NCBI GenBank assembly: GCA_035601835.1
Contig: DATNNM010000012.1
Span: 124,001-188,000 of the forward strand
Reading direction: 5' to 3'
Source: Candidatus Tumulicola sp.
Lineage (GTDB): Bacteria; Vulcanimicrobiota; Vulcanimicrobiia; Eremiobacterales; Eremiobacteraceae
DNA: 64,000 nucleotides
Of this stretch, positions 2,343 to 62,212 are shown one piece after another (position 1 is the first letter of the stretch; each line of letters opens with the position of its first letter). The translations under genes were made by a program, and so were the position numbers. The notes under the pieces were generated by a model. It was not told the origin of the DNA, did no database searches, and saw only the letters and a program-made list of their open reading frames with translations.

Positions 2343-2932
2343 TACCGCGCGTGGGCTGCGTCGTGCTGGCGGCCGGCGCGTCCACGCGCTTCGACGGCAA
2401 GCATTCAAAACTGCTTGCAAACGTTCGCGGCATACCGCTCGCCCAGCATGCGATCGATGCTGCGTGCGCATCGCGTGCGCTGACCTGCACGCTGGTGCTC
2501 GGCGCGCACTCGGGGGTAGTTCGCGAAGGCCTCGAGACGCGGCGTTGCGCGGTTGTGGAGAACCGGCGCTGGAGCGACGGCATCGCGTCGTCCATACGCT
2601 GCGGTTTGCGCCTGCACGCAGCAGACGAGGCGTGCGTCATCCTCGTGGCTGACCAGCCGTTCGTGAGTCCGCGCGACGTGGACGCGCTCATCGCGGCCCA
2701 CATCGCACGGCCGAGCGCCATCGTGGCGCTGCGCGCGGGGCGCGTGTGGGGCACGCCCGCGCTGTTCGTGCACCGAGATTTCGCCAAACTGCGCGCGCTG
2801 CGCGGGGATCGCGGAGCGAAGGCTTACATCAAGACGCAGTCAGCCCGGCTCGTCCTAGTCGAAGCACTTGATGCCCGCGCCTTTACCGACATCGACCGCA
2901 AATCCGACCTCGCGGCCATTACTCGAATGTAG
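2327..2932 (+). CDS. mocA: MocA-like molybdenum cofactor cytidylyltransferase (NTP transferase)
   Basis: This 201-residue NTP_transf_3 protein starts with the nucleotide-binding loop LAAGASTRFDGKHSKLL (14-30), followed by VVENRRWSDGIASSIRCGL and VADQPFVSPRDVDALI. This is the MobA/MocA pattern in which a CMP or GMP unit is attached to molybdopterin. Pairing with yqeC favours the MocA (cytidylyl) branch. A MobA or other sugar-nucleotide role cannot be excluded from motifs. Its last codon and stop (ATG TAG) run directly into a palindromic element whose conserved GTAG supplies the stop. Confidence 0.82.
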   Translation: MALALIPRVGCVVLAAGASTRFDGKHSKLLANVRGIPLAQHAIDAACASRALTCTLVLGAHSGVVREGLETRRCAVVENRRWSDGIASSIRCGLRLHAADEACVILVADQPFVSPRDVDALIAAHIARPSAIVALRAGRVWGTPALFVHRDFAKLRALRGDRGAKAYIKTQSARLVLVEALDARAFTDIDRKSDLAAITRM

Positions 2933-2952
2933 TGCCGGGGCTTTAGCCCCGG
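2929..2952 (+). repeat. palindromic element, class A
   Basis: GTAGTG is followed by the perfect palindrome CCGGGGCTTTAGCCCCGG (2935-2952) around the core CTTTAG. The TAG is the mocA stop codon. Further class A copies lie at 9550, 32558, 43113 and, degenerate, 58309. Confidence 0.9.
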
Positions 2953-2956
2953 TCAT

Positions 2957-3802
2957 CTACAACAACCGCGGCTGCTCAGGCCGCGGTTTCGGCACTAACG
3001 GCGGACCCATGAGCGGCCGGAGGATCGCGCTCATCTCGGTCGCGTTTTGCGCGGCGCGGCCCAGATGGTGGTTGTTGAAGAAGACGAACGTCTCTTCGGC
3101 TTCCTGCGCGACGTCTGCGATGCGCGGCGCCCACGCTTGCAGCTCCTCGTCGCCGTAAAGGTACGAGTAGCGCTCGTGCGAAGCGCGCTCTTGCTTCCAC
3201 CACTTGTCGTAGTTGCGGCCGTGAAAGCGCACATACCCGATGCTCGAGGTCACGTCGGCGCTCGGCCGCAGCAGCGTTTTGAATGCCGGCTCGTCGACGT
3301 TGCACCACCCGACGTCGAGTTCCCGGAGCCGTTTCACCGCGTCGCTTTGCTGCCACTCGCGATGCCTGAATTCGGCGACGAGCGAAAGGTCGGGCCACCA
3401 TTCGCGCACCTGCTCCAGACGGCGATACGCGTCGGCATTCGGACGGAACGCGTGCGGGAATTGCGCGAGCACGGCGCCCAGTTTCTTGGAGGCGAGCAGC
3501 GGGCTGAGCGCCTCGCGGAAGAGCCGCACATCGTCGGCAGGCGGCTCGCTGTCGGCGGGGACATGCGTGATGCTGCCGGGCGCTTTGACCGTGAAACGGA
3601 AAGCGGGCGGCGTGCGCGCCGCCATGTTCGTAAACAGCTGCGGCTTGGGAACGGCGTAGTAGGTGCTGTCGATCTCGACCGCATCGAAGTGCTCGGCGTA
3701 GAACTCAAGCATGTCTGGCGATTTCATGCCGTGCGGATAGAACGGACCGATCCAATCCTTGTACGAGAAGCCGCACGTGCCGACGTGAACGCGCACGATC
3801 AC
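2957..3802 (-). CDS. DUF72 (YecE-like) protein
   Basis: The 281-residue product carries the DUF72 hallmarks: VGTCGFSYKDWIGPFYP at the N-terminus, MLEFYAEHFDAVEIDSTYYAVP, FRFTVKAPGSITH, LAQFPHAFRPN, VAEFRHREW, YVRFHGRNY and ETFVFFNNHH. The family adopts a TIM-barrel fold and its biochemical role is unsettled. The GTG start at 3802 shares one base with the stop of the acylphosphatase gene (TAGTG), so the two are translationally coupled. The C-terminal tail is Pro/Arg-rich, not typical of the family, and encoded by a palindromic element. Confidence 0.92.
   Translation of the reverse strand: MIVRVHVGTCGFSYKDWIGPFYPHGMKSPDMLEFYAEHFDAVEIDSTYYAVPKPQLFTNMAARTPPAFRFTVKAPGSITHVPADSEPPADDVRLFREALSPLLASKKLGAVLAQFPHAFRPNADAYRRLEQVREWWPDLSLVAEFRHREWQQSDAVKRLRELDVGWCNVDEPAFKTLLRPSADVTSSIGYVRFHGRNYDKWWKQERASHERYSYLYGDEELQAWAPRIADVAQEAEETFVFFNNHHLGRAAQNATEMSAILRPLMGPPLVPKPRPEQPRLL
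2960..2998 (-). repeat. palindromic element variant inside the 3' end of the DUF72 gene
   Basis: Read on the minus strand it begins TAGTGCCG, then has arms CCGCGGC and GCCGCGG around a 7-base loop. It shares the TAGTGCCG opening of class A elements. It is translated as the last dozen residues of the DUF72 protein (VPKPRPEQPRLL), so it lies head to head with the element at 2929. Confidence 0.55.
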
Positions 3803-4074
3803 TACCCTATGATGCGAAACGAGGCGAATTCGCCGGTCGCCTCTTCCGAGAACTCTTCAAGCTTTCGCACGACCGCGCCGGGCGGGCCTTCGGCGCACCA
3901 GCGCTTGAACGACTCGAGTTCTTGAGCGCGTCCCTCGGCGAGCACTTCGACGCCGCCATCAGGCCGATTGCGCACCCAGCCGGTGAGTCCTAGATCGCCT
4001 GCCTTTTCGGCGGCGCTGACCCGAAAGAAAACGCCTTGGACCATGCCGCGTGCGATCACATGCAAGCGCGGCAC
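3802..4074 (-). CDS. acyP: acylphosphatase
   Basis: This 90-residue protein has the acylphosphatase fold signature GMVQGVFFR, with the phosphate-binding Arg18, and GWVRNRPDGGVEV, with catalytic Asn36. The enzyme hydrolyses carboxyl-phosphate bonds such as that of acetyl phosphate in the cytoplasm. Length and both catalytic residues are normal. It leads a two-gene unit with the DUF72 gene and sits 14 bases downstream of the tRNA-Ser gene on the same strand. Confidence 0.95.
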   Translation of the reverse strand: MPRLHVIARGMVQGVFFRVSAAEKAGDLGLTGWVRNRPDGGVEVLAEGRAQELESFKRWCAEGPPGAVVRKLEEFSEEATGEFASFRIIG

Positions 4075-4088
4075 GAGCTATGCGCGCG

Positions 4089-4173
4089 AGGAGGGAGTGG
4101 GATTCGAACCCACGAGGGCTTTCACCCCAACGGTTTTCAAGACCGCCGCCTTCAACCGCTCAGCCACCCCTCC
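4089..4173 (-). tRNA. tRNA-Ser (anticodon UGA)
   Basis: On the minus strand an 85-base cloverleaf is visible: acceptor GGAGGGG (4173-4167) pairs with TCCCTCC (4096-4090), a D-arm GCTGAGCGGTTGAAGGC, an anticodon arm with loop CTTGAAA and anticodon TGA (4139-4137), a long variable arm GGGTGAAAGCCC as in class II tRNAs, and a T-arm with GGTTCGAATCC. CCA is not encoded. The base at the discriminator position 73 is U, whereas bacterial tRNA-Ser normally carries G73. Confidence 0.95.
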
Positions 4174-4252
4174 ACGTTTTCGAAGTCGAAGGTCTTGGTT
4201 TGGTGCAAAGGCAACGATTTCCGCCAGACGCGGAAAAGGAGGGCACATCCCC

Positions 4253-5377
4253 GTGCGCGAGACGGCGTTCGCAAAAGCCTCGGTTCCGGCGCGCGCGCAC
4301 GGGCTGCCCGGGCGTTGTTTCGCCGATGGCGCGATCTTCGCGCAAGAGCGCGAACGCGTCTTCGCCTCGGAGTGGGTCTGCGTCGGACGCGAAGAGCACG
4401 TCGAGCAACCCGGAGATTTCTTTCTTGCCGACGTCGCCGGCGAAAGTCTCATCGTCGTCCGCGGCAACGACCAGCAGGTGCGCGCCTTTTTCAACGTATG
4501 CCGGCATCGTGGCACGCGCCTGTGCAGCGACGAGCGCGGCACGCTGACCGGCTCGATCCAGTGCCCGTATCACGCGTGGACCTATGCGCTCGATGGACGA
4601 TTGTCGGCAGCGCGCAATATGGCCGACGTGGCCGGCTTCGATCAGACCGAGTATCCGCTCCACCAAGCCGCGCTGGCGGCCTGGAACGGCTTTCTCTTCC
4701 TCAACCTGGCGCAAAAGGAGGAGCCCTTCTCGCAGGCCTTCGCGCCGGTCGCGCAGCGATTCGCGCGCTGGCACATCGGTGAGCTGCGCGCGGCGCGGCG
4801 GATCGAGTACGAGGTCGCGGCGAATTGGAAACTGGTCTTCCAGAACTATTCCGAGTGCTATCACTGCCCGCTGATCCATCCGGCCCTCGAGAAACTCACG
4901 CCTTCGGACAGCGGCCGCAACGATCTGATGGAAGGCGCGTTCCTCGGGGGTTACATGACCTTTCGACGCCCGGGCGGCACGCTGACGACGAGCGGAGCGA
5001 CGGCGCGCCGCGCGGTAGGCGAAGTCGGGGGCGACGACCTCAATCGCGTGTATTTCTATGCGATCTTCCCCTCGCTGCTGTTGAGCTTGCACCCGGACTA
5101 TGTCATGGCGCACATCGTGCGGCCCGTGAACGTCGCTCAGACAACCATCGCGTGCGAGTGGCTGTTCGATCCATCGGAGATACGACGAGCAGATTTCGAT
5201 CCCAGCGACGCCGTTGAGTTTTGGGATCTCACCAACCGGCAGGATTGGCGCGTGTGCGAACTCTCGCAGCTGGGCGTTTCGTCGCGCGCATACGTCCCCG
5301 GGCCATACGCGAACCAGGAAGGCTTATTGCACGCCTTCGACCGCCACTATCTCTCAAGGATGCAAGCGCCGGACTAA
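4253..5377 (+). CDS. Rieske non-heme iron oxygenase, large (alpha) subunit
   Basis: The 374-residue protein has an N-terminal Rieske [2Fe-2S] domain with Cys83, His85, Cys104 and His107 (CRH...CPYH) and a C-terminal catalytic domain with the mononuclear-iron motif ECYHCPLIH (His204, His209) plus a downstream Asp. This is the architecture of ring-hydroxylating and choline-monooxygenase-like enzymes that use O2 with an electron-transfer partner. No ferredoxin or reductase gene adjoins, so the substrate is unknown. The GTG start at 4253 was chosen because AAAAGGAGGG lies 10 bases upstream. The stop TAA and the last codons come from a palindromic element. Confidence 0.9.
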   Translation: MRETAFAKASVPARAHGLPGRCFADGAIFAQERERVFASEWVCVGREEHVEQPGDFFLADVAGESLIVVRGNDQQVRAFFNVCRHRGTRLCSDERGTLTGSIQCPYHAWTYALDGRLSAARNMADVAGFDQTEYPLHQAALAAWNGFLFLNLAQKEEPFSQAFAPVAQRFARWHIGELRAARRIEYEVAANWKLVFQNYSECYHCPLIHPALEKLTPSDSGRNDLMEGAFLGGYMTFRRPGGTLTTSGATARRAVGEVGGDDLNRVYFYAIFPSLLLSLHPDYVMAHIVRPVNVAQTTIACEWLFDPSEIRRADFDPSDAVEFWDLTNRQDWRVCELSQLGVSSRAYVPGPYANQEGLLHAFDRHYLSRMQAPD

Positions 5378-5392
5378 AGCCCGGCTTACCAC
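5368..5392 (-). repeat. palindromic element, class C (reverse)
   Basis: GCCGG-ACTAAAG-CCCGGC is followed by TTACCAC, the reverse of the class C opening GTGGTA. The arms are slightly degenerate. TAA at 5375-5377 is the stop of the Rieske oxygenase. Confidence 0.75.
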
Positions 5393-5398
5393 GTTTCG

Positions 5399-6004
5399 CT
5401 AAGGCTTGCCGATGAGTCCGGCGCTCTGGCCATACACGACGTATTTGCACTCCTCGCCGCACGGCGCTCCGCCAGGTCCGTTCGGCAAACGTCCAAGCAT
5501 CGATCGACCTAGCGAGCCGTCGTCCTCGATGTCGTAGCTGCCGAGCCGTTTATCGGCCGAGGGGTGATGGTAGACGTAGGCCGCCTTCGTGCCGGGCACG
5601 GCGGGCAGCGGCGGCGGTAGATATTTCGGAACGAGTTCCCGAAGCGTCGCCGGATAGCGTCCATTGTCGACGCCGTACGTCTCGAGCGCGGTCGCAATGT
5701 TTCTCATATTGACTTCGTCCTGAGCGAGTTGAGCCTGTTCTCGGGCGCGCGAGAAGTTCGGTATGACGATGGCCGCTACGATAAGTATCACGGGGATGGC
5801 GAAGAGCAAGACGAGGCATCCGATGAGGACGAAGACCCACTTGGACGTGCCGCCTTTTTCCGGCGGGATCGCCAACACCGGCGGTTCGCCCGGCGTCTCC
5901 CTTGAGACCGGCACGGCTGCTCCGCACTTGGAGCAGAACTGCTCGCCCGCGGGAAGCGGCGCGCCGCAGCGCTGGCAGTACACGCTAGGGTCCACCGGGC
6001 TCAC
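5399..6004 (-). CDS. zinc-ribbon membrane protein with a pseudopilin-like domain
   Basis: The 201-residue product starts with a zinc ribbon (Cys10, Cys13, Cys24, Cys27; CQRCG and CSKCG), followed by a Pro-rich linker, one strong membrane segment (about 56-82) and IPNFSRAREQAQLAQDEV. The helix after the membrane segment and ALETYGVDNGRYPATLREL match the GspG-type major pseudopilin region (AL..Y..DNG.YP). There is no prepilin cleavage motif, so it is probably a fixed membrane protein rather than an assembled pilin. The GTG start at 6004 overlaps the preceding stop by 4 bases (GTGA). The function is unknown. Confidence 0.75.
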   Translation of the reverse strand: MSPVDPSVYCQRCGAPLPAGEQFCSKCGAAVPVSRETPGEPPVLAIPPEKGGTSKWVFVLIGCLVLLFAIPVILIVAAIVIPNFSRAREQAQLAQDEVNMRNIATALETYGVDNGRYPATLRELVPKYLPPPLPAVPGTKAAYVYHHPSADKRLGSYDIEDDGSLGRSMLGRLPNGPGGAPCGEECKYVVYGQSAGLIGKP

Positions 6005-6459
6005 GCACAGCTCGTGGTCAGACCGGAGTCCATCTTGATCTTCCAAGAGCCGTCGGACTGGCGTCCCCAGATCGTGAGATAGCGGCCTAGGTCGGTTTCG
6101 GCGGCTCCTTTCGCGGGCTTGAAGGTGAACTGGTACTTGCCGATCTCGTAGGCGGTGTCGCCGTCAACGACGAGATCGGTGGTCGTGATCGTGCCCTTGG
6201 TCATGCCCAGCTGCGAGAAGACTTTCTTCTGATAGTCGTGCACGGCGGCGCGGCCGTGGACGATGGCGCCGTTCCCTCTCACGATGTCGCCGTCTTCGGC
6301 GAACAGCGCCGCGTATGCGTCGGCATCGCCGCGCTCCCACGCCGCGATGTACTGGTCATTACCGGCGTCTATGGCTTTTTGTATGGCTGCATTGGGATTG
6401 GCCGTCGCGGCCGGCGTTGGGCTTGCCAACAGCAAGACGAGCGCAAAATACAACATCAT
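6001..6459 (-). CDS. secreted SnoaL/DUF4440-like (NTF2-fold) protein
   Basis: The 152-residue product begins with a signal peptide (MMLYFALVLLLASPTPAATA) and continues with IQKAIDAGNDQYIAAWERGDADAYAALF, GDIVRGNGAIVHGRAAVHDY and YLTIWGRQSDGSWKIKMDSG. That is the SnoaL-like/DUF4440 pattern of a cone-shaped NTF2 fold. Such proteins bind small ligands or act as isomerase-like enzymes; no specific reaction can be assigned. AAAGGAGCAACC precedes the ATG at 6459. It sits in an overlapping run with the methyltransferase upstream and the zinc-ribbon gene downstream. Confidence 0.85.
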   Translation of the reverse strand: MMLYFALVLLLASPTPAATANPNAAIQKAIDAGNDQYIAAWERGDADAYAALFAEDGDIVRGNGAIVHGRAAVHDYQKKVFSQLGMTKGTITTTDLVVDGDTAYEIGKYQFTFKPAKGAAETDLGRYLTIWGRQSDGSWKIKMDSGLTTSCA

Positions 6460-7256: not shown

Positions 7257-7265
7257 GCCAGGCGA

Positions 7266-7295
7266 TTCCGCCGGACCGCCGCGCGCGCCTACAAT
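7266..7295 (+). promoter_or_regulatory. possible promoter of the bc-complex operon
   Basis: TACAAT at 7290-7295 is a good -10 element, about 100 bases before the Rieske gene. The -35 position (TTCCGC, 7266-7271) is poor, so the call rests mainly on the -10 box and the divergent gap. Confidence 0.35.
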
Positions 7296-7394
7296 CGCGA
7301 CAAAAATCGCTGGCGGCCGGGTGCCGACGAAGGCCCAACGGGCCTGAAGTCAAAAGCTCCGCTCCAGTGCAAGCGCGACCTGGAGGTAAAGACA

Positions 7395-8087: not shown

Positions 8088-8101
8088 GGGGACGCCGAAA
8101 C

Positions 8102-9553
8102 ATGATTTCATGGATTGAACAACGCACCGGCATCGTCTCGGCGCTCAAGGAGTTCCTGACCGAAGACATCCCGGGCGGGGCCAGCTACTGGTACGTCTTC
8201 GGTAGCGTGACGCTCATCTTGCTCACCATGCAGATCGTGAGCGGCATCTTCCTCACGTTTTACTATTCGCCGTCCGCCCTCACCGCGTGGGAGTCGACCA
8301 AATTCATCTACGAGCACGTCACGTTCGGCCAGTTCATGATCAGCCTGCACGATTGGGGCGCCTCGGCGATGATCATCTTGGTCACGGTGCACCTGCTGCA
8401 AGCGCTGGTCTTCGGCGCGTACAAACGTCCGCGCGAGATCCAATGGGCGGTCGGAGTGACCCTGTTCTTCTTCACGCTCGTCCTTGGTTTCACGGGCTAT
8501 TTGTTGCCGTGGGACCTCAACGCTTACTACGCCACCCAAGTCGGTATCAACATCGCCGCCACCGTGCCCATCATCGGCCCGCAAATCGCGAGTTTTCTCA
8601 ACGATGGCTCCACGCTCGGCACGCTCACGGTCAGCCGGTTCTTCGGCATCCACGTCTGGTTGACGCCCGCGCTGCTCATCGGGCTCGTCGGACTTCACCT
8701 GTTCATCTTCCGTCATAACGGTCCGGCTGGGCCGGCGGCGGACGAGAAGCCGAAGACGGTCGGGCGTTTCTACCCCGAACAGATCTTCATGGACACCCTC
8801 GTCGCATTTATCGCGTTCCTCGTTGTCGTGGCGCTCGCCGTCTATATGCCGACGCCGCTGCTTCCCAAAGCCGATCCGAACTACGGCGGCTTCATTCCGG
8901 CGCCGGCGTGGTATTTCTACTCGCTCTACGGCATCTTGCGCATTGCGCCGGCGGGAGTGCTCACGCTGGTCGCCACCGTGGTCCTGCCCGGCGTGTTCTC
9001 GCTCGTACTCTTCTTGTTGCCGTGGATCGACCGCAATCCAAGCCGGGCGATCGCCAAGCGTCCCTTCATGATGGGCGTCACCGCGCTCACGATCGTCGCG
9101 ATCGTCGGCCTAAGCGCATTCGCAGCGAACGCGATCAATGCGGAGCGCAAAGCAAGTCCCGCGGGCCTCACCCCGGTCGCCGGCCTTGGCGCACCGCCCC
9201 CGACGCCGGCGCCGAGCGGCGGCGCTACCGTGGCAGCGAATGTGCCCGACGGCAAGGCGATTTACGACGCCAAGTGCGCGAGCTGTCACGCGGCCGGCGG
9301 CGCAGGTCTGCCCGGAGCGTTCCCGCCGCTCAAGGGCAACAAATACGTTGCCGGCTCCCCGAAGGCGGTCATCCACACCGTGCTCGACGGCATGAACGGC
9401 AAGATCGTGGTGAATGGACAGACGTACAACGGCGCGATGCCGGCTTGGAAGGGCAGCCTCACGCCGGCGGAGGTGGCGGCGGTCGTCACCTACATCCGCT
9501 CGCTCAACGGCGCGAAACCGGTGAGCGTGGCCGACGTCAAGTCCGTGAAGTAG
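8102..9553 (+). CDS. cytochrome b fused to a C-terminal cytochrome c domain (bc complex)
   Basis: The 483-residue protein holds a complete cytochrome b: four heme-b ligands His83, His97, His184 and His199, the GYLLPWD segment, and the C-terminal half with the Qo motif reading PAWY (268-271) instead of PEWY. After a further membrane segment and an Ala/Pro linker (about 361-375) there is a class I cytochrome c with CASCH (392-396) and an axial Met in GAMPAW. With the Rieske gene this gives a compact two-gene bc complex that oxidises quinol at the membrane and contributes to the proton gradient. A b-c fusion is also known in Firmicutes. Confidence 0.93.
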   Translation: MISWIEQRTGIVSALKEFLTEDIPGGASYWYVFGSVTLILLTMQIVSGIFLTFYYSPSALTAWESTKFIYEHVTFGQFMISLHDWGASAMIILVTVHLLQALVFGAYKRPREIQWAVGVTLFFFTLVLGFTGYLLPWDLNAYYATQVGINIAATVPIIGPQIASFLNDGSTLGTLTVSRFFGIHVWLTPALLIGLVGLHLFIFRHNGPAGPAADEKPKTVGRFYPEQIFMDTLVAFIAFLVVVALAVYMPTPLLPKADPNYGGFIPAPAWYFYSLYGILRIAPAGVLTLVATVVLPGVFSLVLFLLPWIDRNPSRAIAKRPFMMGVTALTIVAIVGLSAFAANAINAERKASPAGLTPVAGLGAPPPTPAPSGGATVAANVPDGKAIYDAKCASCHAAGGAGLPGAFPPLKGNKYVAGSPKAVIHTVLDGMNGKIVVNGQTYNGAMPAWKGSLTPAEVAAVVTYIRSLNGAKPVSVADVKSVK

Positions 9554-9573
9554 TGCCGGAGCTTTAGCTCCGG
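9550..9573 (+). repeat. palindromic element, class A, between convergent genes
   Basis: GTAGTG is followed by CCGGAGCTTTAGCTCCGG (9556-9573). Relative to the copy at 2929 both arms changed together (GG/CC to GA/TC), preserving pairing. Its TAG ends the cytochrome gene on the plus strand and its TTA ends the pterin dehydratase on the minus strand. Confidence 0.9.
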
Positions 9574-11912: not shown

Positions 11913-11983
11913 GGCTTTTATTCCACCATTAATGTACCCAAAAGAGGGCCAGGCATCACGCCGGGCGCGGCGAAAGTTACCAC

Positions 11984-14956
<2,973 letters not shown>

Positions 14957-16266: not shown

Positions 16267-16267
16267 G

Positions 16268-16292
16268 AACGGATCTAAAGATCCGTTGCTAC
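16268..16292 (-). repeat. palindromic element, class D
   Basis: AACGGATCT and AGATCCGTT form perfect 9-bp arms around AA, followed by GCTAC; reversed this reads GTAGC and then a palindrome around CTTTAG. It shares GTAG and the CTTTAG core with class A but has different arms. Confidence 0.8.
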
Positions 16293-31977: not shown

Positions 31978-32561
31978 GACCGCAAAACGTTCCCGTCACG
32001 ATGGCGGTCATCGCCATCTGCGTGATCGTGTTCGCCATCGATTACCTGCAGGGCGGCGCGCTCACGAACGCCGGGGCGGTCACGCCGGCTCTCGTCAAAG
32101 GCGGCGAGTGGTGGCTGCTGATCACCGGCGGGTTCTTGCACGCAAGCGTGCCGCACATCTTGTTCAATATGCTCGCGCTGTTCCAAGCAGGAACGTTCGT
32201 CGAGTTCGCGTACGGCAGCCCGCGTTACGCGCTCATCTATGTCGCCGGATTGATCGCGGGCAACCTCGCCGTGACGGTCCTCAGCCCGGCGCCGGCCATC
32301 GGCGCGTCGGGGGCGATCATGGGTGTTTTCGGTGCGATGGTGGTGCTCGGTTTCAAGCTGCCGGCCATGCGCGGCCCGCTCTTGCGCGCGGCCGGCTTTC
32401 CTATTCTCCTGACGCTGGCCAATGGTTTCATCAATCCGTACATATCGTGGCAGGCGCACGTGGGCGGTCTGCTCGGCGGCGCGCTCGTCGCGCAGGTCCT
32501 CACACCGGCTCGGGCGTCGCTCTTCCAACCCGCCGCGGTTGTTCCCGAAGACGAAGTGTAG
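31974..32561 (+). CDS. rhomboid family intramembrane serine protease
   Basis: The 195-residue protein has several membrane segments and the rhomboid signatures FLHASVPHILFNMLALFQAG (HxxxN), the catalytic Ser in GASGAIMGVFGA, and the catalytic His in WQAHVGGLLGGAL. Rhomboids cleave membrane-spanning substrates. It lacks extra cytoplasmic domains. The GTG start overlaps the preceding gene; its stop TAG is in a palindromic element shared with the convergent gene. Confidence 0.92.
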
Positions 32562-32581
32562 CGCCGGGGCTTTAGCCCCGG
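32558..32581 (+). repeat. palindromic element, class A, between convergent genes
   Basis: GTAGCG precedes CCGGGGCTTTAGCCCCGG (32564-32581). Its TAG ends the rhomboid gene and its TTA gives TAA for the minus-strand glycosyltransferase, the same arrangement as at 9550. Confidence 0.9.
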
Positions 32582-42514: not shown

Positions 42515-42541
42515 TGTGGTATGCCGGACTTTACGTCCGGC
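42514..42541 (+). repeat. palindromic element, class C
   Basis: ATGTGGTAT is followed by GCCGGAC (42523-42529), TTTAC and GTCCGGC (42535-42541), a perfect 7-bp stem. It starts at the last base of the glycosyltransferase stop. Confidence 0.85.
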
Positions 42542-43083: not shown

Positions 43084-43109
43084 ATGTAGCGTTCCGAGCG
43101 AAGCTCGGA
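43084..43109 (+). repeat. palindromic element, class B
   Basis: ATGTAGCGT is followed by TCCGAG-CGAAG-CTCGGA (43093-43109). An identical copy lies at 60078 and a degenerate one at 58341. Confidence 0.85.
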
Positions 43110-43112: not shown

Positions 43113-43136
43113 GTAGTGCCGGGGCTTTAGCCCCGG
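43113..43136 (+). repeat. palindromic element, class A
   Basis: GTAGTG then CCGGGGCTTTAGCCCCGG (43119-43136), the same sequence as the copy at 2929. It is directly downstream of a class B element, and six Ts follow. Confidence 0.9.
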
Positions 43137-44294: not shown

Positions 44295-44323
44295 ATGTGG
44301 TATGCCGGACCTTGGTCCGGCAT
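44295..44323 (+). repeat. palindromic element, class C
   Basis: ATGTGGT is followed by ATGCCGGACC (44302-44311), TT, and GGTCCGGCAT (44314-44323), a perfect 10-bp stem. It lies upstream of the AI-2E gene. Confidence 0.9.
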
Positions 44324-50857: not shown

Positions 50858-52609
50858 GTGGAAGAAGAAAACGATCCTCAATCACCTTTAGAAGAATCCT
50901 CGGAAGCTCCGCCCAGACCTCCCACATACCGAACCCGCAACCGCGTCCCTCGACCGATGGAAATCGACGTCGATGTGGAGCGTCCGGCTCGCGTCGAGCG
51001 GCCCGAGCGCGCGGAGCGCCCCGAGCGCGTAGACCGAGCGGATCGGGGAGAACGCGCGGAGCGCCCGGATCGCGTGGACCGCAGCATAGAGCGCGCGGAT
51101 CGCCCGGAACGCGGCGAACGTATGGAGCGCGGTGAGCGCCCAGAACGCCCGGATCGAGGCGAACGGTCCGAACGCTACGACCGCCCCGAGCGGTCCGAGC
51201 GCGGCGGAAGATACGATCGCGGGCGGCCGGATCGCGCCGGGCAACGCGTGTATCAGATGCGCCCGTATCAAGAACGCATCGAACCGCCGCAGCCGAAGAC
51301 GTACGAGACCAAAGACGGCACGGTCATGAACATCCTGAACATCAAAGAGCTGGAAGAAAAAACGCGCACCGAACTCATCGAGCTCGCAAAAACGCTTGAA
51401 ATCCCCGACCTGCAACGCATCAAGAAACAAGATCTTGTTTTCCCGATCCTCGAAGCGCAAGCAAAAGCCGCCGGTCTGAACTTTGCGACCGGTGTGCTCG
51501 AGATATTGCCCGAGGGTTATGGTTTTCTGCGGCGTGAGAACATGCGGCCCGGCCCGCACGATGTCTACATCTCGCAATCGCAGGTCCGGCGCTTCGAACT
51601 GCGCACCGGCGATCAAATCGCGGGGCTGATCCGCGATCCCAAAGACAACGAGAAGTATCACGGCATCCTCAAAGTAGAAGCGGTCAACGGCCAAGACCCG
51701 GAGGCGATCCGCGGCCGCGCGGTATTCGACAAACTCGTCCCGGTCTATCCCGACCAGCGCCTAAAAATGGAGACCTCGTCGCTCGAGATGAGCGGCCGCG
51801 TTTTCGATCTGCTTTGTCCGATCGGCAAGGGCCAGCGCGGTCTCATCGTGTCGCCGCCCAAAGCCGGCAAGACCACGATGTTGAAGAAGATCGCCAACGC
51901 CATCGCAGCCAATCATCCGGAAGTGGATCTCTTCGCGCTGCTCGTCGACGAGCGCCCCGAAGAAGTCACCGATATGCGCCGCTCGATCGAGGGCGAAGTC
52001 GTCTCGTCGACCTTTGACGAGCACCCGGACAACCACACGGCGGTCGCCGAGCTCACCCTTGAGCGCTGCAAGCGACTCGTGGAACTCGGTCACGACGTCG
52101 TCATCTTGCTCGACTCCATCACGCGCCTCGCGCGCGCCTGGAACCAAGTCATGCCGACGACCGGGCGAACGCTCTCGGGCGGCCTCGACACGAGCGCGCT
52201 GCACAAACCCAAGCGCTTCTTCGGCGCAGCGCGCAATATCGAGAACGGCGGCAGTCTGACGATCATCGCCACGGCGCTGATCGAGACGGGCTCGAAGATG
52301 GACGACGTCATTTTCGAAGAGTTCAAAGGCACCGGCAACATGGAGATCAACCTGGTGCGCAAGCTTGCCGACAGCCGCATATTCCCGGCGGTCGACATCA
52401 AGCGTTCCGGCACGCGTCACGAAGAACTGCTGCTCAGCGAGATCGAGCTGCGCAAGATCGTGATGCTGCGCCGCGCCACGGCCGTGCTCGGCACGCAGGA
52501 GATGACCGAGTTGATCCTCGAGCGCTTCCGGCGCACCGACAGCAACGAAGAGTTCCTGAAGTCGGTCACCAAGGAAGCCATGTCCATCGCCGGAGACAGC
52601 GACCGCTAA
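50858..52609 (+). CDS. rho: transcription termination factor Rho with long disordered N-terminus
   Basis: The 583-residue protein is longer than the usual 420. Residues about 25-145 are extra: Pro-rich, then a polyampholyte of repeats such as ERPERVDR and DRGERAERP. The core follows: [16 protein letters not shown]-type N-domain ([13 protein letters not shown]), RNA-binding [19 protein letters not shown]-loop [28 protein letters not shown]. Rho is the RNA helicase of factor-dependent termination. GTG start at 50858. The downstream pseudouridine synthase follows 13 bases after its stop. Confidence 0.97.
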
Positions 52610-54766: not shown

Positions 54767-55692
54767 ACCGGCAAAGCATTGCCATCATCGGCACCGGACT
54801 GATCGGGGCTTCTCTCGGCCTTGCGTTGCGCCGAAAATCAAGCGCTATCGTCGGATGGGACCGGAAACGTGCAAACGCACGCGAGGCAAAACGGCGAGGA
54901 GCGATCACACGCATCGCCGCCAGTCTTGAAGACGCAGTGCGCGATGCTGCCGTAGTCGTGCTCGCCGCGCCCCTTCCCGAAATCCTGAAAATGCTGCCGC
55001 GCGTTCTCAGGATGGCGCGCTCCAGCGCGCTGGTCATCGACGTCGGCGGGCTCAAAGTGCCGGTCGTGCGCGAAGCGGAGCGAGCGCTGCGCCGACAAAG
55101 CCGGACTAAAGTCCGGCATACCACAGCTCGCGCGCGCAACGCATACTTCGTCGCCGGCCACCCCCTCGCAGGCAACGAGCGCAGCGGTCCGGGCGCGGCG
55201 CGTGCCGATCTTTTTCAAGGCATGCCTTTTGCGTTGTACGCTCCAGCTCAGCCGGAGCGCGCAAGCGCACGAAGGGCAGCCGAGCGCTTTGTGCGCCGTC
55301 TCGGCGCCAAGCCCGTGTGGGTTCCGCCGGCGGAGCACGATCGCATCGTATCCGTCACCAGCGCCCTGCCTCAGCTCGCCTCGACCGCTCTTGCGCTCGC
55401 ATGGCGCGATGCCGGCGGACCGGCGGCGGGAAAACTCGCCGGGCCGGGCCTCCGAGGCGCAACGCGGCTCGCCGATTCGCCGTTCTTAGTATGGAAGGCC
55501 AGTCTCCTCGGCAACCGCGGAAACGTGCGGAGGGCATTGCTGGCGCTGAAGCGCCGGGTGGATATGCTCGCCAAGGCTCTGAACGGCAGGCACGAGCGCC
55601 AACTCGCCCAACTTTTTGCGGCTGGAGCCGGTGCAAGACGGCGGATTCTGCAACCTGCCCGGAGAAAAACGGCCGCCACCCATCGCTATTAA
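54763..55692 (+). CDS. tyrA: prephenate dehydrogenase with an in-frame palindromic element
   Basis: The 309-residue product has the NAD-binding [39 protein letters not shown], and the catalytic [14 protein letters not shown]. It oxidises prephenate to 4-hydroxyphenylpyruvate. Residues about 112-122 ([11 protein letters not shown]) come from a class C palindromic element translated in frame in the loop before the HPLAG strand. The flanking core motifs are intact, so the enzyme is probably functional. Start GTG overlaps aroF. Confidence 0.92.
55100..55125 (-). repeat. palindromic element, class C, inside tyrA
   Basis: GCCGGACT (55100-55107), AA, AGTCCGGC (55110-55117), then ATACCACA, the reverse of the TGTGGTAT opening. 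It is translated within tyrA without a frame change or stop. Confidence 0.9.
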
Positions 55693-55720
55693 TCATCCAC
55701 AAGTAACGCGAAGGAGACCC

Positions 55721-57364: not shown

Positions 57365-57447
57365 ATGTGTCTGAGCACACACTCGTTCGACCGCTTGTTT
57401 GCAGGGCCGACGGACCCCCCATTTCATCGGTAGGAACGGCCGCCGAA

Positions 57448-57467
57448 GCCGTGTAATCGAACACGGC
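57448..57467. other. hairpin upstream of exbB
   Basis: GCCGTGT (57448-57454) and ACACGGC (57461-57467) form a perfect 7-bp stem with loop AATCGA, about 85 bases past the TPR gene. No T-run follows. Confidence 0.4.
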
Positions 57468-57508
57468 GACGACGGCCGGGCGTCCTGCGCCCGCCTTCTG
57501 CGTTTTAT

Positions 57509-57537
57509 GCGTTCCCGCAGCGCACCGAGGGTACAAT
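57509..57537 (+). promoter_or_regulatory. possible exbB promoter
   Basis: TACAAT at 57532-57537 is a good -10 box 36 bases before the start codon. The -35 region (GCGTTC) is poor. The 208-base gap holds this and a hairpin, no gene. Confidence 0.4.
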
Positions 57538-57572
57538 CCCAGAATAATTGGCCATAAGGGGTATCCCACACC

Positions 57573-58298
57573 ATGCAGTTATTTCAGGCCTTCTTCGACT
57601 TCCTCAACACCGGCGGCGTCACGATGTACGTGCTGCTGCTCCTGTCCATCGTCTCGTTGGGCATCGTGTTCGAGCGGCTGTTCTTTTTCTCAAGGCAGCA
57701 TTCGGATCCGACGTCTTTGCTCAGGGAGATCGGTGAGCGAGTCGCGCGTGACGACATGAATGGCGCCATCTCCGTGTGCGATCGACACCGCGGCATGTTG
57801 CCCAAGATTTTGCAATTCGGGTTGTATCGGCACGAGAAGAGCCGCGCAGATATCTCCGACGCCCTATCGATCGGGTTGCTCGAGCAGTTGAACGCACTGG
57901 AGGCTAATCTGTCGATCATCGGCACGGTGGCGGTCATCGCGCCCTTCGTCGGCCTGTTCGGAACCGTGCTCGGCATCATCCGGGCGTTCAACGACATCGC
58001 GCTCAAAGGCAACTCGACGCCAGCCGTCGTGGCGGCGGGTGTTTCCTTGGCCTTGCTGACGACCGCCGCGGGCCTGGCGGTCGCGGTCATCGCCGTGATC
58101 TTCTTCAACTACTTCAAGTCGCGCATCAAGTCGTACAATCAGGAGATGATCGTCGCAGCGAACAAGCTTGCCGAAATGCTGCACTTCCACAACACAGGGT
58201 CGCCCATTCCGACCGAGCTGTACACGCCGCGATCCGCGGGGCGCGGGGGCGCACCGTCACCGGCGCCAAGGCCATCGGGACCTCCGACAGGATCGTAA
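57573..58298 (+). CDS. exbB: MotA/TolQ/ExbB proton channel protein
   Basis: The 241-residue membrane protein has three membrane segments (about 12-31, 110-132 and 150-175) and the family core SIIGTVAVIAPFVGLFGTVLG and AGVSLALLTTAAGLAVAVIA. It forms the proton channel that powers TonB with ExbD. It is the only ExbB-type gene in the cluster, with three ExbD genes and three TonB-domain proteins around it. The C-terminus is Pro-rich. Confidence 0.94.
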   Translation: MQLFQAFFDFLNTGGVTMYVLLLLSIVSLGIVFERLFFFSRQHSDPTSLLREIGERVARDDMNGAISVCDRHRGMLPKILQFGLYRHEKSRADISDALSIGLLEQLNALEANLSIIGTVAVIAPFVGLFGTVLGIIRAFNDIALKGNSTPAVVAAGVSLALLTTAAGLAVAVIAVIFFNYFKSRIKSYNQEMIVAANKLAEMLHFHNTGSPIPTELYTPRSAGRGGAPSPAPRPSGPPTGS

Positions 58299-58308
58299 AC
58301 GTCCGTCT

Positions 58309-58334
58309 GTAGCGCCGGGGCCTCATACCCCCGG
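58309..58334 (+). repeat. palindromic element, class A (degenerate)
   Basis: GTAGCG, then CCGGGG (58315-58320) with CCCCCGG (58328-58334) around a changed core. It sits 11 bases past exbB and directly before a class B copy. Confidence 0.6.
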
Positions 58335-58340
58335 AGACGA

Positions 58341-58360
58341 CGCTCCGAGGGAAGCTCGGG
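58341..58360 (+). repeat. palindromic element, class B (degenerate)
   Basis: CGC is followed by TCCGAG-GGAAG-CTCGGG (58344-58360), closely matching TCCGAG-CGAAG-CTCGGA at 43093 and 60087. Confidence 0.6.
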
Positions 58361-58402
58361 TGCGCCAAGTCGTAACCTACGCGAGGAAGAGGCGAGAACA
58401 TC

Positions 58403-58840
58403 ATGGGTCTGACACAAGCAGCGCAAGAAACTGAGGTGATGGCGGAGATCAACATCACGCCGTTTTGCGACGTGCTGCTGGTCTTGCTCATCATCTTCAT
58501 GATTCTCGCGGCGCTCGCAGCACCACCCGGTTTCCAAAAAGAGCTGCCGAAGAAGAACGACCAGCCGCAGAAGATCCAGCAAAGCCAGTTGAAGCATCAG
58601 ATCACCGTGGAGGTCAACGCGACCAACCGAATCTTCATCGATGGGAAGGTGGTCCCGATCTCCAACCTCTACCCCGCGATGTCCGATGCGGTGGCTTTTC
58701 ACAAGGCGCACGCAGCGCAAGGCTTCCTGACCCATATCTCGCTGATCGCCGATGCGGCGGCTAGCTATAACACCATTATCAAGATTCTCGACGCTGCACG
58801 CCAGGCGGGCGACGACGACGTCGGTTTCGTCACGCAGTAA
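58403..58840 (+). CDS. exbD: ExbD/TolR-type protein (first)
   Basis: The 145-residue protein has one membrane segment preceded by the conserved Asp: INITPFCDVLLVLLIIFMIL, then a periplasmic domain TVEVNATNRIFIDGKVVP, YNTIIKILDAARQAGDDDVGF. It couples proton flow through ExbB to TonB. It lies between exbB and a second exbD copy. Confidence 0.93.
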   Translation: MGLTQAAQETEVMAEINITPFCDVLLVLLIIFMILAALAAPPGFQKELPKKNDQPQKIQQSQLKHQITVEVNATNRIFIDGKVVPISNLYPAMSDAVAFHKAHAAQGFLTHISLIADAAASYNTIIKILDAARQAGDDDVGFVTQ

Positions 58841-58857
58841 CTGGAGAGAATAGCACT

Positions 58858-59313
58858 ATGTCAATGGTGGGATCGAACCCCGAAGAAGATGTGATGTCGA
58901 CCATCAACATCACGCCGTTCTGCGACGTGCTGCTGGTCCTGCTCATCATTTTCATGATCTTGACGTCCCTGTTGAAACCGCCGCCGGTGCCGTTGGTCAA
59001 TAACAAGCTCAAGGTCACCAACTCGCCGATCGTCGTGATCATCGGCCACGATCCGAAGGACAACAAGGACACGATCCAAGTGGGCGCCGACTACATCCAA
59101 CCGGCGGACATATACCAAAAATTCAAGGACTACTTCATCCAGTTCAACCAGACGCAGACCGACATCATCATCAAAGCCGCTCCGACGGCGCATTACGGAA
59201 CGGTGCTCACCGTGATGGATGCCGCCAAGAATGCCGGCTTCAACCAGTTCGGTCTTGCGAACAGATTCCCGGGGCAGGCGGGCTCTAGCGACACATCAGG
59301 TTCTTCTCCATAG
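58858..59313 (+). CDS. exbD: ExbD/TolR-type protein (second)
   Basis: The 151-residue protein has TINITPFCDVLLVLLIIFMI with the conserved Asp and a periplasmic part differing strongly from the first copy (IQVGADYIQPADIYQKFKDY, LTVMDAAKNAGFNQFGL). Eighteen bases separate it from the first exbD. Tandem ExbD genes are known in ExbB1-ExbD1-ExbD2 systems. Confidence 0.93.
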   Translation: MSMVGSNPEEDVMSTINITPFCDVLLVLLIIFMILTSLLKPPPVPLVNNKLKVTNSPIVVIIGHDPKDNKDTIQVGADYIQPADIYQKFKDYFIQFNQTQTDIIIKAAPTAHYGTVLTVMDAAKNAGFNQFGLANRFPGQAGSSDTSGSSP

Positions 59314-59341
59314 TCGTGGCGGGCAGAAAGGACGTTTGTAA

Positions 59342-60076
59342 GTGTCCACGACACCTATAGTTCCGCGTCCGGGACGCACTACGCCCGCGCTCTTCACGAA
59401 GCGCGAATGGTACTCACTGGTCTATCTCACGATTGGTTTCATCATCTTGTCAGCCGTCATGCACTTCTTCTTTGGAGCGGTGAGCGAGCGCTTTTTCCCG
59501 AAGTTCAAAGAAGAGGCGACGCCACCGCCGCAAAAAGTCGTGGTGCAGACGCTGATCAAGCCGCCGCCGTCGCCGACGCCGACGCCGAAAGCCACGCCGA
59601 CCCCGCCACCGACCCCGACGCCGCCGCCGTTGAAAAACACGCCGCCGCCGCCGAAACTCAAGCTCAACGTCGTCAAGACGAAGAGCCAGGGTGGCACCGG
59701 ACCAGCTGAGATCTCGTACACGCCGCCGCCGAAGGGCAGCGAGAACGGTATCCCGCTAGGCGTCGCCACCACCGCGCCGACATTCGCGCCGACGTCTGCG
59801 CCGAAGGGACCCACCAACATCACGGATGCAGAGCTGCTTCACCGCGTGATTCCGGATTATCCGGAGATCGCGAAGGAGCAGGGCATCCAAGGCACGGCAA
59901 TCGTCGAGGTCACGATTTCGCCGAGCGGAGGGGTTCTCTCGGTGAAGATCCATCAAAGCTCGGGGAACGCGCTGCTGGACAACGCGGCGATGAGGGCGGC
60001 TCGCGACAGCTCGTACAAACCGCCCTCGGAGACGCGCGACTATCTCATCGAGTACCGGTTCACTCTCGGCGACTAA
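59342..60076 (+). CDS. tonB: energy transducer TonB (first)
   Basis: The 244-residue product has a cytoplasmic N-terminus, a membrane anchor (LVYLTIGFIILSAVMHFFFG), a Pro/Thr-rich periplasmic spacer (about 60-105) and a C-terminal TonB domain (about 165-244: IPDYPEIAKEQGIQGTAIVEVTIS, then LLDNAAMRAARDSSYKPP). It carries energy from the ExbB/ExbD complex to outer-membrane receptors. GTG start at 59342. It ends at a class B element. Confidence 0.94.
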   Translation: MSTTPIVPRPGRTTPALFTKREWYSLVYLTIGFIILSAVMHFFFGAVSERFFPKFKEEATPPPQKVVVQTLIKPPPSPTPTPKATPTPPPTPTPPPLKNTPPPPKLKLNVVKTKSQGGTGPAEISYTPPPKGSENGIPLGVATTAPTFAPTSAPKGPTNITDAELLHRVIPDYPEIAKEQGIQGTAIVEVTISPSGGVLSVKIHQSSGNALLDNAAMRAARDSSYKPPSETRDYLIEYRFTLGD

Positions 60077-60077
60077 A

Positions 60078-60103
60078 ATGTAGCGTTCCGAGCGAAGCTC
60101 GGA
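60078..60103 (+). repeat. palindromic element, class B
   Basis: ATGTAGCGT then TCCGAG-CGAAG-CTCGGA (60087-60103), identical to 43084. It sits 2 bases past the tonB stop. Confidence 0.85.
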
Positions 60104-60116
60104 AGCGGGGGAACCG

Positions 60117-60947
60117 ATGTCGATCGTTCAGGCGATCGCGCTAGGGCTTATCCAAGGCGTCGCGGAGCTGTTCCCGATCAGCAGTGCCGCGCATACGCTG
60201 TTGATCTCCGCGCTGCTCGGCTGGACGCCGCCGAGTTTGCCATTCGTCGTGATGCTGCACTTCGGAACGTTCTTGGCGGTCTTGGTCTATTTCGCGCGCG
60301 ATTTCTGGCAACTCGTGGTCGGATTCTTCACCGGATTCGTGCAGCGATTCGCGCACCCGTACCAACGCCTGGCGCTGCTCATCGTCACGGGCAGCATCCC
60401 GCTTGCGATTCTCGGCTGGCTCTTGGAAAAGCGCCTGGAGCCGCTGTTCGGCAAACCGCTCTTCGCGGCGGTATGCCTGCTGGTGACCGGACTGGTGTTG
60501 TTCGCGGTAGAGCGCTTGCCCCAAGGATCGGGCGTGGCCGAGCGCCTGCCGTTTTGGCGCGCGTTTTGGGTGGGGGTCAGCCAGGTCGCAGGCTTAGTGC
60601 CGGGCGGCTCGCGCTCCGGTTTTTCGATCGCCGCGGGCATGCTCGCGGGTCTGACCCGCGAACAAGCGGCTCGTTTTTCGTTCCTGCTGGCAGGCCCGGC
60701 CATTCTCGGCGCGACGATTTTCGAGCTGCGCAAGATCGTGCATCACACGCCCGGCGCGGCCGCCGCTGAACCGACGCAGAGCATCGCCATCGGTTTCATC
60801 GTCGCCTTCGTGTCGGGGCTGATCGCCATCCGCTTCTTCATGCGCTTCGTGGACCAGCATCGCCTGACACCGTTTGCGGTCTATTGCTGGGTTTTCGGCC
60901 TGGCCATGATCGGGGTGTTCCTGCTCCGCGCCCACCACGGGGCCTGA
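60117..60947 (+). CDS. uppP: undecaprenyl-diphosphatase
   Basis: The 276-residue membrane protein has the BacA/UppP motifs LIQGVAELFPISSAAHTLL and PGGSRSGFSIAAGML, each with catalytic residues, and about eight membrane segments. It regenerates the undecaprenyl-phosphate carrier for cell wall synthesis. The first motif reads SSAAH where SSSGH is common. It lies between two Ton gene groups. Confidence 0.94.
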   Translation: MSIVQAIALGLIQGVAELFPISSAAHTLLISALLGWTPPSLPFVVMLHFGTFLAVLVYFARDFWQLVVGFFTGFVQRFAHPYQRLALLIVTGSIPLAILGWLLEKRLEPLFGKPLFAAVCLLVTGLVLFAVERLPQGSGVAERLPFWRAFWVGVSQVAGLVPGGSRSGFSIAAGMLAGLTREQAARFSFLLAGPAILGATIFELRKIVHHTPGAAAAEPTQSIAIGFIVAFVSGLIAIRFFMRFVDQHRLTPFAVYCWVFGLAMIGVFLLRAHHGA

Positions 60948-60958
60948 GCTGGCGCCTC

Positions 60959-60987
60959 TTGCGATTCCCAGCTTGCTCGCTTATAAT
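60959..60987 (+). promoter_or_regulatory. promoter of the second tonB-exbD pair
   Basis: TTGCGA (60959-60964), a 17-base spacer and perfect TATAAT (60982-60987), 30 bases before the tonB start at 61017. It shows that this pair is an independent unit. Confidence 0.8.
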
Positions 60988-61016
60988 GAAGGTCGGGCGG
61001 GAGTCAGGAGGCCGTC

Positions 61017-61745
61017 ATGGCCCAGGCTCCGCATGCACCAGGGCGATCCGAGTCCAATTCGAGTTTCATCAAGCGCGAACGTAAGACGATCGCGCTGTTT
61101 TCTGTGGCCTTCATAGGCGTTTCCGCGCTCACCCATTTCGCGCTGGGCGGCTTAGGGGCTGGAATTCGTTTTCCCACCCCGACTCCAGAGCCGATGCAAA
61201 CGATTATCATCGAACCGCGTCCGGCAACGCCGACTCCGGCGCCTACACCCAGCCCCGTACTAACGCCGACCCCACCACCGCAGCGGCAGCAGCCGCAACA
61301 TCAGCGACAACAGCCCCGGCCTGTTGTGACGACTCCCGTGATCCCGCCTAAACGGCAGGACGACACGGGTACGCCTGCGCCGGCGACCCCGACCGATGCG
61401 TCACCCGGCCCATCGATTGGAACGCCGGCGCCGGCGCCGGCGACGCCGGGAAGTTCGGCGGACGACGGCACGTACAAGGACGCGATGTTCCTCAACAAAG
61501 TCTCACCGGCGTACCCCGATTTCTGCAAGGAAAGCGGTATCCAAGGCGTCGTGATCGTGCTCGTGACGCTTGGTCCCGATGGTCGCGTGCTCGATGCGCG
61601 CGTCGAGCAGCCGGCGGGCTGCGGCGCGTTGGATCAAGCGGCACTGGAAGCGGCTCGCAAGAGCACCTACACAGCGCCGATGGTCAACGGCAAGCCGGCT
61701 ACGCAGACGTATCGCATCGTCTATACTTTCCAAATGGGGGATTGA
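61017..61745 (+). CDS. energy transducer TonB (second)
   Basis: The 242-residue product has an N-terminal anchor (TIALFSVAFIGVSALTHFAL), a long Pro/Thr/Gln-rich spacer (about 55-150) and a TonB C-terminal domain (about 163-242: VSPAYPDFCKESGIQGVVIVLVTLG and LDQAALEAARKSTYTAPM). It has two Cys in the domain (DFCKE, AGCGAL), which may form a disulfide. AGGAGG lies 6 bases upstream. ExbD (third) follows 4 bases later. Confidence 0.93.
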   Translation: MAQAPHAPGRSESNSSFIKRERKTIALFSVAFIGVSALTHFALGGLGAGIRFPTPTPEPMQTIIIEPRPATPTPAPTPSPVLTPTPPPQRQQPQHQRQQPRPVVTTPVIPPKRQDDTGTPAPATPTDASPGPSIGTPAPAPATPGSSADDGTYKDAMFLNKVSPAYPDFCKESGIQGVVIVLVTLGPDGRVLDARVEQPAGCGALDQAALEAARKSTYTAPMVNGKPATQTYRIVYTFQMGD

Positions 61746-61749
61746 TGCG

Positions 61750-62178
61750 ATGAAGCCGCTGACATCAGCTGAACTGCCCATCCTCGCCGAGATCAACATC
61801 ACGCCGTTCACCGACGTACTGCTGGTCTTGCTCGTCATCTTCATGATCCTGGCGGCGCTTGCGACGCCGCCGGGATTCCAGAAACAAATGACGAGCCCCG
61901 CTGGTCACGGTCCGCCGCCACTTTGCCGGCATCAGATCGACATCTCTGTCCACGCGAACGGGAGCGTCTGGATCGAAGGGCGCCGGATCGCGCTTGCCGC
62001 GCTGTACCCGGAGATCGCTTCAACGGTTCGGTTCCACGATGATCACAAGCGACAAGGCTATTGTCGTCACATCGCGCTGCTGGGCGATTCGAAAACGGAC
62101 TACAACCTGATCTTGAAGGTGCTCGATGCCGCTCGTGCGGCACAGGACGACGACGTCGGTTTGGTCGTGCAACACTAG
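61750..62178 (+). CDS. exbD: ExbD/TolR-type protein (third)
   Basis: The 142-residue protein has LAEINITPFTDVLLVLLVIF with the Asp, and a periplasmic domain with IDISVHANGSVWIEGRRIAL and YNLILKVLDAARAAQDDDVGL. The ATG at 61750 was chosen; the open frame upstream is a shadow of tonB. It has no ExbB of its own and presumably shares the channel at 57.6 kb. Confidence 0.93.
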   Translation: MKPLTSAELPILAEINITPFTDVLLVLLVIFMILAALATPPGFQKQMTSPAGHGPPPLCRHQIDISVHANGSVWIEGRRIALAALYPEIASTVRFHDDHKRQGYCRHIALLGDSKTDYNLILKVLDAARAAQDDDVGLVVQH

Positions 62179-62183
62179 CACGC

Positions 62184-62212
62184 GATGTGGTATGCCGGAC
62201 TTTAGTTCGGCA
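62184..62212 (+). repeat. palindromic element, class C (one mismatch in arm)
   Basis: GATGTGGTATGCCGGAC, TTTA, GTTCGGCA. One base of the 8-bp stem is changed. It lies between exbD and moaC. Confidence 0.75.

Follow-up and report, generated by a model that had tools for sequence, protein, structure and literature searches.

What are the short palindromes that recur along the chromosome of a little-studied bacterium, and what sets the way they face? The question arises from a 64,000-nt stretch (the window) of the draft genome of Candidatus Tumulicola sp. (Eremiobacteraceae), an assembly of 2.57 Mb in 18 contigs with a completeness of 97.86%. Sixteen such palindromes had been described in the window in an initial annotation, which likened them to repetitive extragenic palindromic (REP) elements and suggested a search for a REP-associated tyrosine transposase (RAYT). 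Here we conclude that it is near certain that the palindromes are real REP elements of a REP/RAYT system. We further report two solid observations from this genome: in parts of the chromosome REPs are polarised relative to the inferred direction of replication, and they are joined in head-to-tail chains. Both are probably the work of a RAYT (TnpA-REP) system of Eremiobacterota that inserts REPs into the lagging-strand template, in which the mobility of the elements is putative.

Results

The REPs have a common architecture of a GTAG or GTGG head followed by a hairpin with a loop of mostly TTTA. Allowing three free bases, the class A pattern matches 203 times in the draft genome and, when reversed, not once, which excludes chance. 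Strict patterns applied to 1.264 Mb (49% of the genome) identify 318 REPs (A 163, B 72, D 39, C 33, E 11). The four arm classes first described (A-D) are present in the window, and the larger sample extends them to five. Heads are GTAG in 270 and GTGG in 48 of the sampled REPs, with patterns that themselves required GTRG. Loops are mostly TTTA in classes A, C, D and E and mostly GAA in class B (55/72). In class A, 156/163 loops are TTTA and 160/163 TTNA, a rule that agrees with the loop needs measured for the Marinomonas REPtron, for which PMC8266576 gives T12, T13 and A15 as required and position 14 as free.

Searching 464 kb for a GTRG head with a perfect hairpin (stem of at least 8) gave 99 matches, compared with 7 in one Markov shuffle and 37 for the scrambled head GRTG, a control that is probably inflated because many REPs follow GAT, creating GATG. 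In a further run GRTG gave 71 matches, 54 of them with five paired bases, and CAYC 6 matches with 1 paired; GRTG is not a clean control because its matches include real REPs. Among 42 distinct CTTTAG hairpins, selected on head and loop alone, the score for covariation reaches 0.560 (0.187 on average in shuffles, 0/500 as high; at most 0.137 in slid registers) and 88.4% of cells are paired against a shuffled mean of 66.5%, which upholds the claim that the arms change together. The free pairs of the class patterns are likewise mostly complementary (162/163 in class A, 36/39 in class D). Random GC-rich palindromes were ruled out by the genome count (203 versus 0), the hairpin search (99 versus 7) and the covariation above shuffles, and a described Rfam family by the window matches over threshold, which are a thiamine pyrophosphate (TPP) riboswitch and tRNA only. 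Besides being numerous, REPs are mostly extragenic, with 38 of the 318 inside called genes (27 of these antisense). The likeness to REPs stands, while that to Rickettsia palindromic elements, also raised at the start, finds no support in location, the only aspect compared.

A single Y1_Tnp match, on contig C16, was found in the draft genome. This gene is the RAYT that was to be sought: it passes NCBIfam REP_Tyr_transpos (NF047646) with 109.5 bits (cut-off 80), and it has one class A REP just upstream and two inverted class A REPs just downstream. RAYT genes with two inverted flanking REPs are described for Stenotrophomonas (PMC2817692). An IS200/IS605 identity was rejected (14.5 bits on the IS200 model, cut-off 55), and the sole significant relative of solved structure is TnpArep (4er8, E 1.3e-8). 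GTAG recognition has been linked to TnpArep residues W94, Q95, E100, H101 and R104, which in the 4er8 alignment stand opposite W, Q, D, H and R; the change of E to D at that site is given for subclasses 2.5 and 2.7 (PMC6006769). The DHxH and YxxxNP motifs are invariant across 13 aligned RAYTs of the 15 in the family, from which L035 (in-frame stop) and L045 (partial) were left out.

To relate REP orientation to replication, we used gene direction, which switches at dnaA on contig C3 (C3L 30+/82-, C3R 44+/20-), and the majority gene strand was therefore taken as the leading strand. GC skew is too weak in this genome to indicate replication direction, which is deduced throughout. Four REP-dense stretches cover 460 kb (C8 0-120 kb, C10 0-140 kb, C15 0-140 kb and C9 80-140 kb). 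In these, 178 of 185 REPs run head-to-hairpin along the predicted leading strand (178:7), which puts GTRG on the lagging-strand template. The polarity is common to all classes (A 82:2, B 51:3, C 14:2, D 25:0, E 6:0). The stretches were picked after the class A map had been seen (C8 13:0, C9 0:11, C10 1:19, C15 0:30, others mixed), and a run test is for that reason the fairer figure: 57 of 79 class A neighbours are on the same strand compared with 39.9 expected (p 0.0002, 5000 shuffles), based on 86 thinned positions on C1-C11 (to 506 kb) with the single copies on C2, C5 and C6 omitted.

Orientation could instead track transcription if the hairpins were retained at gene ends as terminators or mRNA stabilisers. 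Such a role would suit the many REPs that adjoin gene 3' ends, which are the majority, and the 25 sampled genes with a REP-derived stop codon. However, the dense-stretch REPs ignore transcription. They follow replication between convergent (45:1) and divergent (23:0) genes, between co-directional genes on the leading (71:0) and the lagging strand (24:5), and inside genes (15:1); the divergent and lagging-strand counts led us to reject transcription as the cause of orientation. In addition, a perfect hairpin should act in RNA either way round, so that an RNA role would not set polarity. Taken together, we consider retention at the transcript level very unlikely as an explanation.

REPs also form chains. 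We found 66 clusters of two to six REPs, of which 63 have one orientation and 3 are mixed; they are thus not built from the inverted pairs of REP doublets forming hairpins (REPINs) or of bacterial interspersed mosaic elements (BIMEs). In the dense stretches 122/185 REPs have a neighbour within 200 bp and 0 of these are inverted, compared with 45/133 and 6 inverted in the rest. Class pairs in the clusters are often mixed (BA 13, AA 7, AC 6, AB 5). Measured from where the class pattern ends, the gap amounts to 2 nt in 17/23 BA, 9/11 BB and 4/8 AC joints, where the 2 nt may partly still be stem bases, and is longer in AB joints (3-7 nt in 10/17). Adjacency within 200 bp is weak evidence by itself (101 pairs versus 72.5 at random, maximum 91) and only tight spacing stands out: 74 start-to-start distances are 36 bp or less, whereas random intergenic placement has a mean of 24.7 and a maximum of 36 in 300 runs, the observed count including intragenic REPs that the simulation omitted.

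This strong excess of tight same-orientation chains is what local spread would produce, in which the few REPs that first arrived in these stretches were joined by later copies, placed alongside in the same orientation, with polarity as a by-product. Against it, singletons in the dense stretches are polarised too (59/63), and counting separate sites gives 104:5, on contigs of both orientations. We therefore regard local spread as highly improbable as the source of polarity.

Comparison of gene order with G014, a single-contig relative, gave 229 reciprocal best hits in 22 collinear blocks, and 17 of the 22 agree with the assigned leading strand, including those on C8, C10 and C9. The blocks place parts of these three contigs at 0.75-0.80 of the origin-to-terminus distance, and those of C3 around the origin, except two at 0.38 and 0.87. 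C3 is REP-poor (17 in 180 kb), with 11 REPs facing with and 6 against replication. Two places contradict a simple gradient: C18 100-120 kb, where the block lies at 0.93, carries REPs of both orientations (4:3), and in C12 205-225 kb, whose block lies at 0.20, all 8 REPs are on + (8:0) where the block predicts a leading - strand. An origin-to-terminus gradient is therefore not shown and is suggestive only. Separately, C9 20001-60000 (GC content 0.592) lacks both REPs and reciprocal best hits to the G014 sample, and is perhaps a recently acquired island.

FtsK is guided by FtsK orienting polar sequences (KOPS). REPs might in a comparable way, whatever the route of their arrival, be retained by selection only in the origin-to-terminus orientation because a translocase or the replisome reads them. 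In a further reading they would form a replication-polar system, in which single-strand insertion into the lagging-strand template has produced hundreds of hairpins that face one way in part of each replication arm, and the cell may use the arrays as direction marks near the terminus. The high density and polarity on C8, C10 and C9, the low density and polarity at the origin and the polarity common to all five classes speak for such signposts. REPs in the dense stretches face from origin to terminus, and a rise in density towards the terminus is suggestive only. On the other side stand the mixed REPs of C18 and the uniformly + REPs of C12, the unplaced position of the densest contig (C15), the absence of an evident common motif beyond GTRG and the hairpin, and a relative (G003) in which polarity was not detected. 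On balance, either reading appears unlikely.

Class A singletons are preceded by T in 81/87 and by AT in 44/87 cases, and AT precedes 15/18 class B and 13/21 class C singletons, with an intergenic AT background of 4.3%. Class D differs (AC 6/21, AT 3). The T before the head may belong to the target or to the element. At gene ends, the 25 REP-derived stop codons comprise 18 head TAG and 7 loop TAG. Within 200 bp of a gene end, class A frames are unequal (14 head, 4 loop, 0 open; p 0.0002), consistent with selection for little C-terminal change. For 13 of the 25 genes a protein was matched in the G014 sample; in 8 the alignment ends no more than 10 residues from the C terminus made by the REP, in 5 of these also no more than 10 from the relative's end, and in the other 5 it ends 23 to 76 residues short. 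TAG stops supplied by REPs have been reported before (PMC3733652). Among the 1192 called genes of the 1.264-Mb sample, stops are TAG in 416, TGA in 446 and TAA in 330, so that TAG seems high at 64% GC; REPs explain just 25 of the 416.

RAYTs above the cut-off occur in 10 of the family's 14 genomes, this one among them, and in none of 47 other genomes of the class. GTRG hairpins lie near 12 of the 15 family RAYT genes, with TTTA in the loop at 8 of these 12 and with differing stems. At the other three (L033, L038 and L039) no GTRG hairpin was found nearby; the flanks of L039 were hidden by a position filter, and its counterpart L075 also has none. L033 and L038 are the second RAYTs of G010 and G003 and have similar sequences. 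In G006, the RAYT (L035) has one in-frame TAG, and a loose pattern that fits its flanking REPs matches once in the genome. Among RAYTs of named genomes, the closest mostly carry the label Eremiobacterota; the first two carry that of Proteobacteria but probably correspond to G007, a genome of the same family. GTAG hairpins also occur near RAYTs from several other phyla. Records of such RAYTs (L074, L086, L090, L092, L095 and L118) are labelled Zixibacteria, Bipolaricaulota, Bipolaricaulis, Cloacimonadota and Scalindua.

Features of the window

All 16 palindromes were verified, with the described sequences present at every position (Table 1). As one related set they hold for 15, four of them degenerate: a recognisable REP body, in one orientation, is present at 15 of 16 sites, and the hairpin at 2960 (CCGCGGC..GCCGCGG) is a separate one, excluded for having neither a GTRG head nor a CTTTAG loop. 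Strict class patterns match 10 of the 16, and the other five members (5368, 27197, 58309, 58341, 62187) lie outside them and were judged by eye. By eye, 11 of the 15 are on + and 4 on -, and the strict ten divide 8:2. The description of the palindromes as lying at gene ends agrees with our own gene calls, from which gene ends were taken: 9 of the 10 strict copies lie no more than 61 bp from the 3' end of a called gene, the exception being 55100, which is 333 bp from the nearest called gene. Three copies (2929, 9550 and 32558) furnish the stop TAG of the preceding gene.

Table 1 Palindromic elements of the window, with positions counted from its first nucleotide (ORF, open reading frame).
Feature	Position	Strand	Basis
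REP class A, consensus; head TAG is stop codon of gene 2327-2932	2929..2952	+	strict pattern
Hairpin of the initial annotation, non-REP (no GTRG head, no TTTA loop)	2966..2986	.	inspection
REP class C, degenerate (GTGGTAAGCCGGGC..GTCCGGC)	5368..5392	-	by eye; missed by strict pattern
REP class A, GGAGC/GCTCC variant with compensatory change; TAG is stop of gene 8102-9553	9550..9573	+	strict pattern
REP class D	16268..16292	-	strict pattern
REP class D, degenerate, altered loop	27197..27224	-	by eye
REP class A, GTAGCG variant; TAG is stop of ORF ending 32561	32558..32581	+	strict pattern
REP class C, loop with one-base insertion	42516..42541	+	strict pattern
REP class B, first in head-to-tail B-A chain	43086..43109	+	strict pattern
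REP class A, second in B-A chain	43113..43136	+	strict pattern
REP class C, altered loop (CTTG)	44297..44323	+	strict pattern
REP class C	55100..55124	-	strict pattern
REP class A, degenerate, enlarged loop	58309..58334	+	by eye
REP class B remnant, head lost; orientation as 58309	58341..58363	+	by eye
REP class B	60080..60104	+	strict pattern
REP class C, one G-T pair in stem	62187..62211	+	by eye

The window also contains the TPP riboswitch at 11978-12097, ahead of a gene at 12088, and a repeat with a nine-base period at 50960-51210 within ORF 50858-52609. Three related 109-nt stretches (64-82% identity) at 58442, 58897 and 61786 perhaps lie in paralogous genes.

Discussion

Insertion into the lagging-strand template would be the simplest cause of the polarity, and it matches HUH-Y1 transposase chemistry. 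By analogy with IS200/IS605 and TnpA-REP, the RAYT would act as an HUH single-strand transposase that recognises the GTRG head and hairpin on single-stranded DNA, cleaves beside an (A)T on the 5' side of the head and transfers REPs to new sites. If this took place chiefly at the fork, when the lagging-strand template is exposed as a single strand, insertion would be one-way in each replication arm, and insertion next to a resident REP on the same exposed strand would give head-to-tail chains. Surviving copies would mainly be intergenic or at gene ends, with a stop codon at times replaced by the head TAG. Classes B-E may be mobilised in trans by the same RAYT or may be relics of earlier RAYTs.

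Several points weigh against this reading. Outside the dense stretches polarity is weak (90:43), with a leading strand set by hand; alternative rules give 89:44 (local gene majority) and 83:50 (blocks). In that assignment C11 0-40 and 140-160 kb, C12 80-100 kb and C16 140-160 kb go against the local gene majority, following a block or the remainder of the contig, and C12 205-225 kb and C18 130-150 kb follow the gene majority against their own block. Five of the 22 blocks disagree with the assigned strand (C3 4-7 kb, C7 115-118 kb, C11 414-423 kb, C12 216-219 kb, C18 138-142 kb), and the densest contig, C15, has no collinear block, so its leading strand comes from gene direction alone. The class B-E counts come from roughly half of the genome. 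By itself, a lagging-strand bias that acts uniformly does not explain why only some stretches are polar or why polarity was not detected in the relative G003. Age, as measured by matches to the exact class A consensus, does not explain the difference either, with similar shares in the dense stretches (76/82 with replication, 1/2 against) and the rest (52/58 with, 19/21 against). We saw no transposition and no empty site in what is one genome of its genus, the mobile unit lacks a defined 3' boundary and the unassembled part of the genome might hold a further RAYT.

Polarity was also not detected in G003, where 136 copies have another stem: 33 of 68 neighbours are on the same strand (shuffle mean 34.5), tested on the 88 positions that remained after thinning of the 100 visible. 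The genomes reached via L118 and L079 have 8 and 4 pattern copies, too few for a polarity test. Escherichia coli MG1655 has the GTAG head, an HUH-Y1 RAYT and intergenic repeats in common with this system. In 300 kb of its genome, taken as six stretches, 38 REPs divide 19:19 relative to replication, 16 of them coming from one stretch and mostly from one array, and all 21 neighbours within 250 bp are inverted, unlike the dense stretches here (178:7, and 0 of 122 close neighbours inverted). Given G003 and E. coli, polarity belongs to stretches of this genome and not to REPs generally.

Other known systems share parts of the picture. The group 3 REPtrons of Marinomonas and Stenotrophomonas have the GTAG head, and Marinomonas REPs also two spacer bases, a short perfect stem and a TTTA loop, with a stem of 5 bp compared with 7 bp here (PMC8266576). 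From the group 3 REPtrons so described, the present system differs in having five classes with one RAYT, polarity in part of the genome, mixed head-to-tail chains and a host from another phylum. The GTAG families of Di Nocera et al. 2013 resemble it in the GTAG tag, stems of mostly 6-9 bp, location at gene ends and TAG as stop (PMC3733652). Pseudomonas fluorescens SBW25 offers a partial precedent for polarity, with tandem arrays of GI and GIII REPs that are all forward in the five near 2 Mbp, on one arm, and reverse in the six near 4 Mbp, on the other (PMC3116915). In those arrays, however, the spacing of GI and GIII REPs is 112 and 72 bp and an inverted doublet (REPIN) is proposed as the mobile unit, whereas the REPs here are joined singly, with a few bases between them. 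Sequencing of SBW25 populations detected excision of REP doublets but none of a single REP (same source). IS200/IS605 elements would share the HUH-Y1 chemistry on single strands, and IS608 and ISDra2 are stated to target the lagging-strand template (PMC6006769), although the RAYT itself scores far below the IS200 cut-off. Among the matches listed from open-licence PubMed Central, there was no paper on REP/RAYT in Eremiobacterota and none on the replication polarity of single REPs.

The system described here places REP/RAYT in Eremiobacterota. Whether REPs move at all, and by what route, has long been an open question, and near-perfect polarity that ignores transcription is a prediction of insertion into the lagging-strand template, an idea that this genome makes testable. 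The mixed-class chains, with joints of a few bases, may record successive insertions and could serve to order them.

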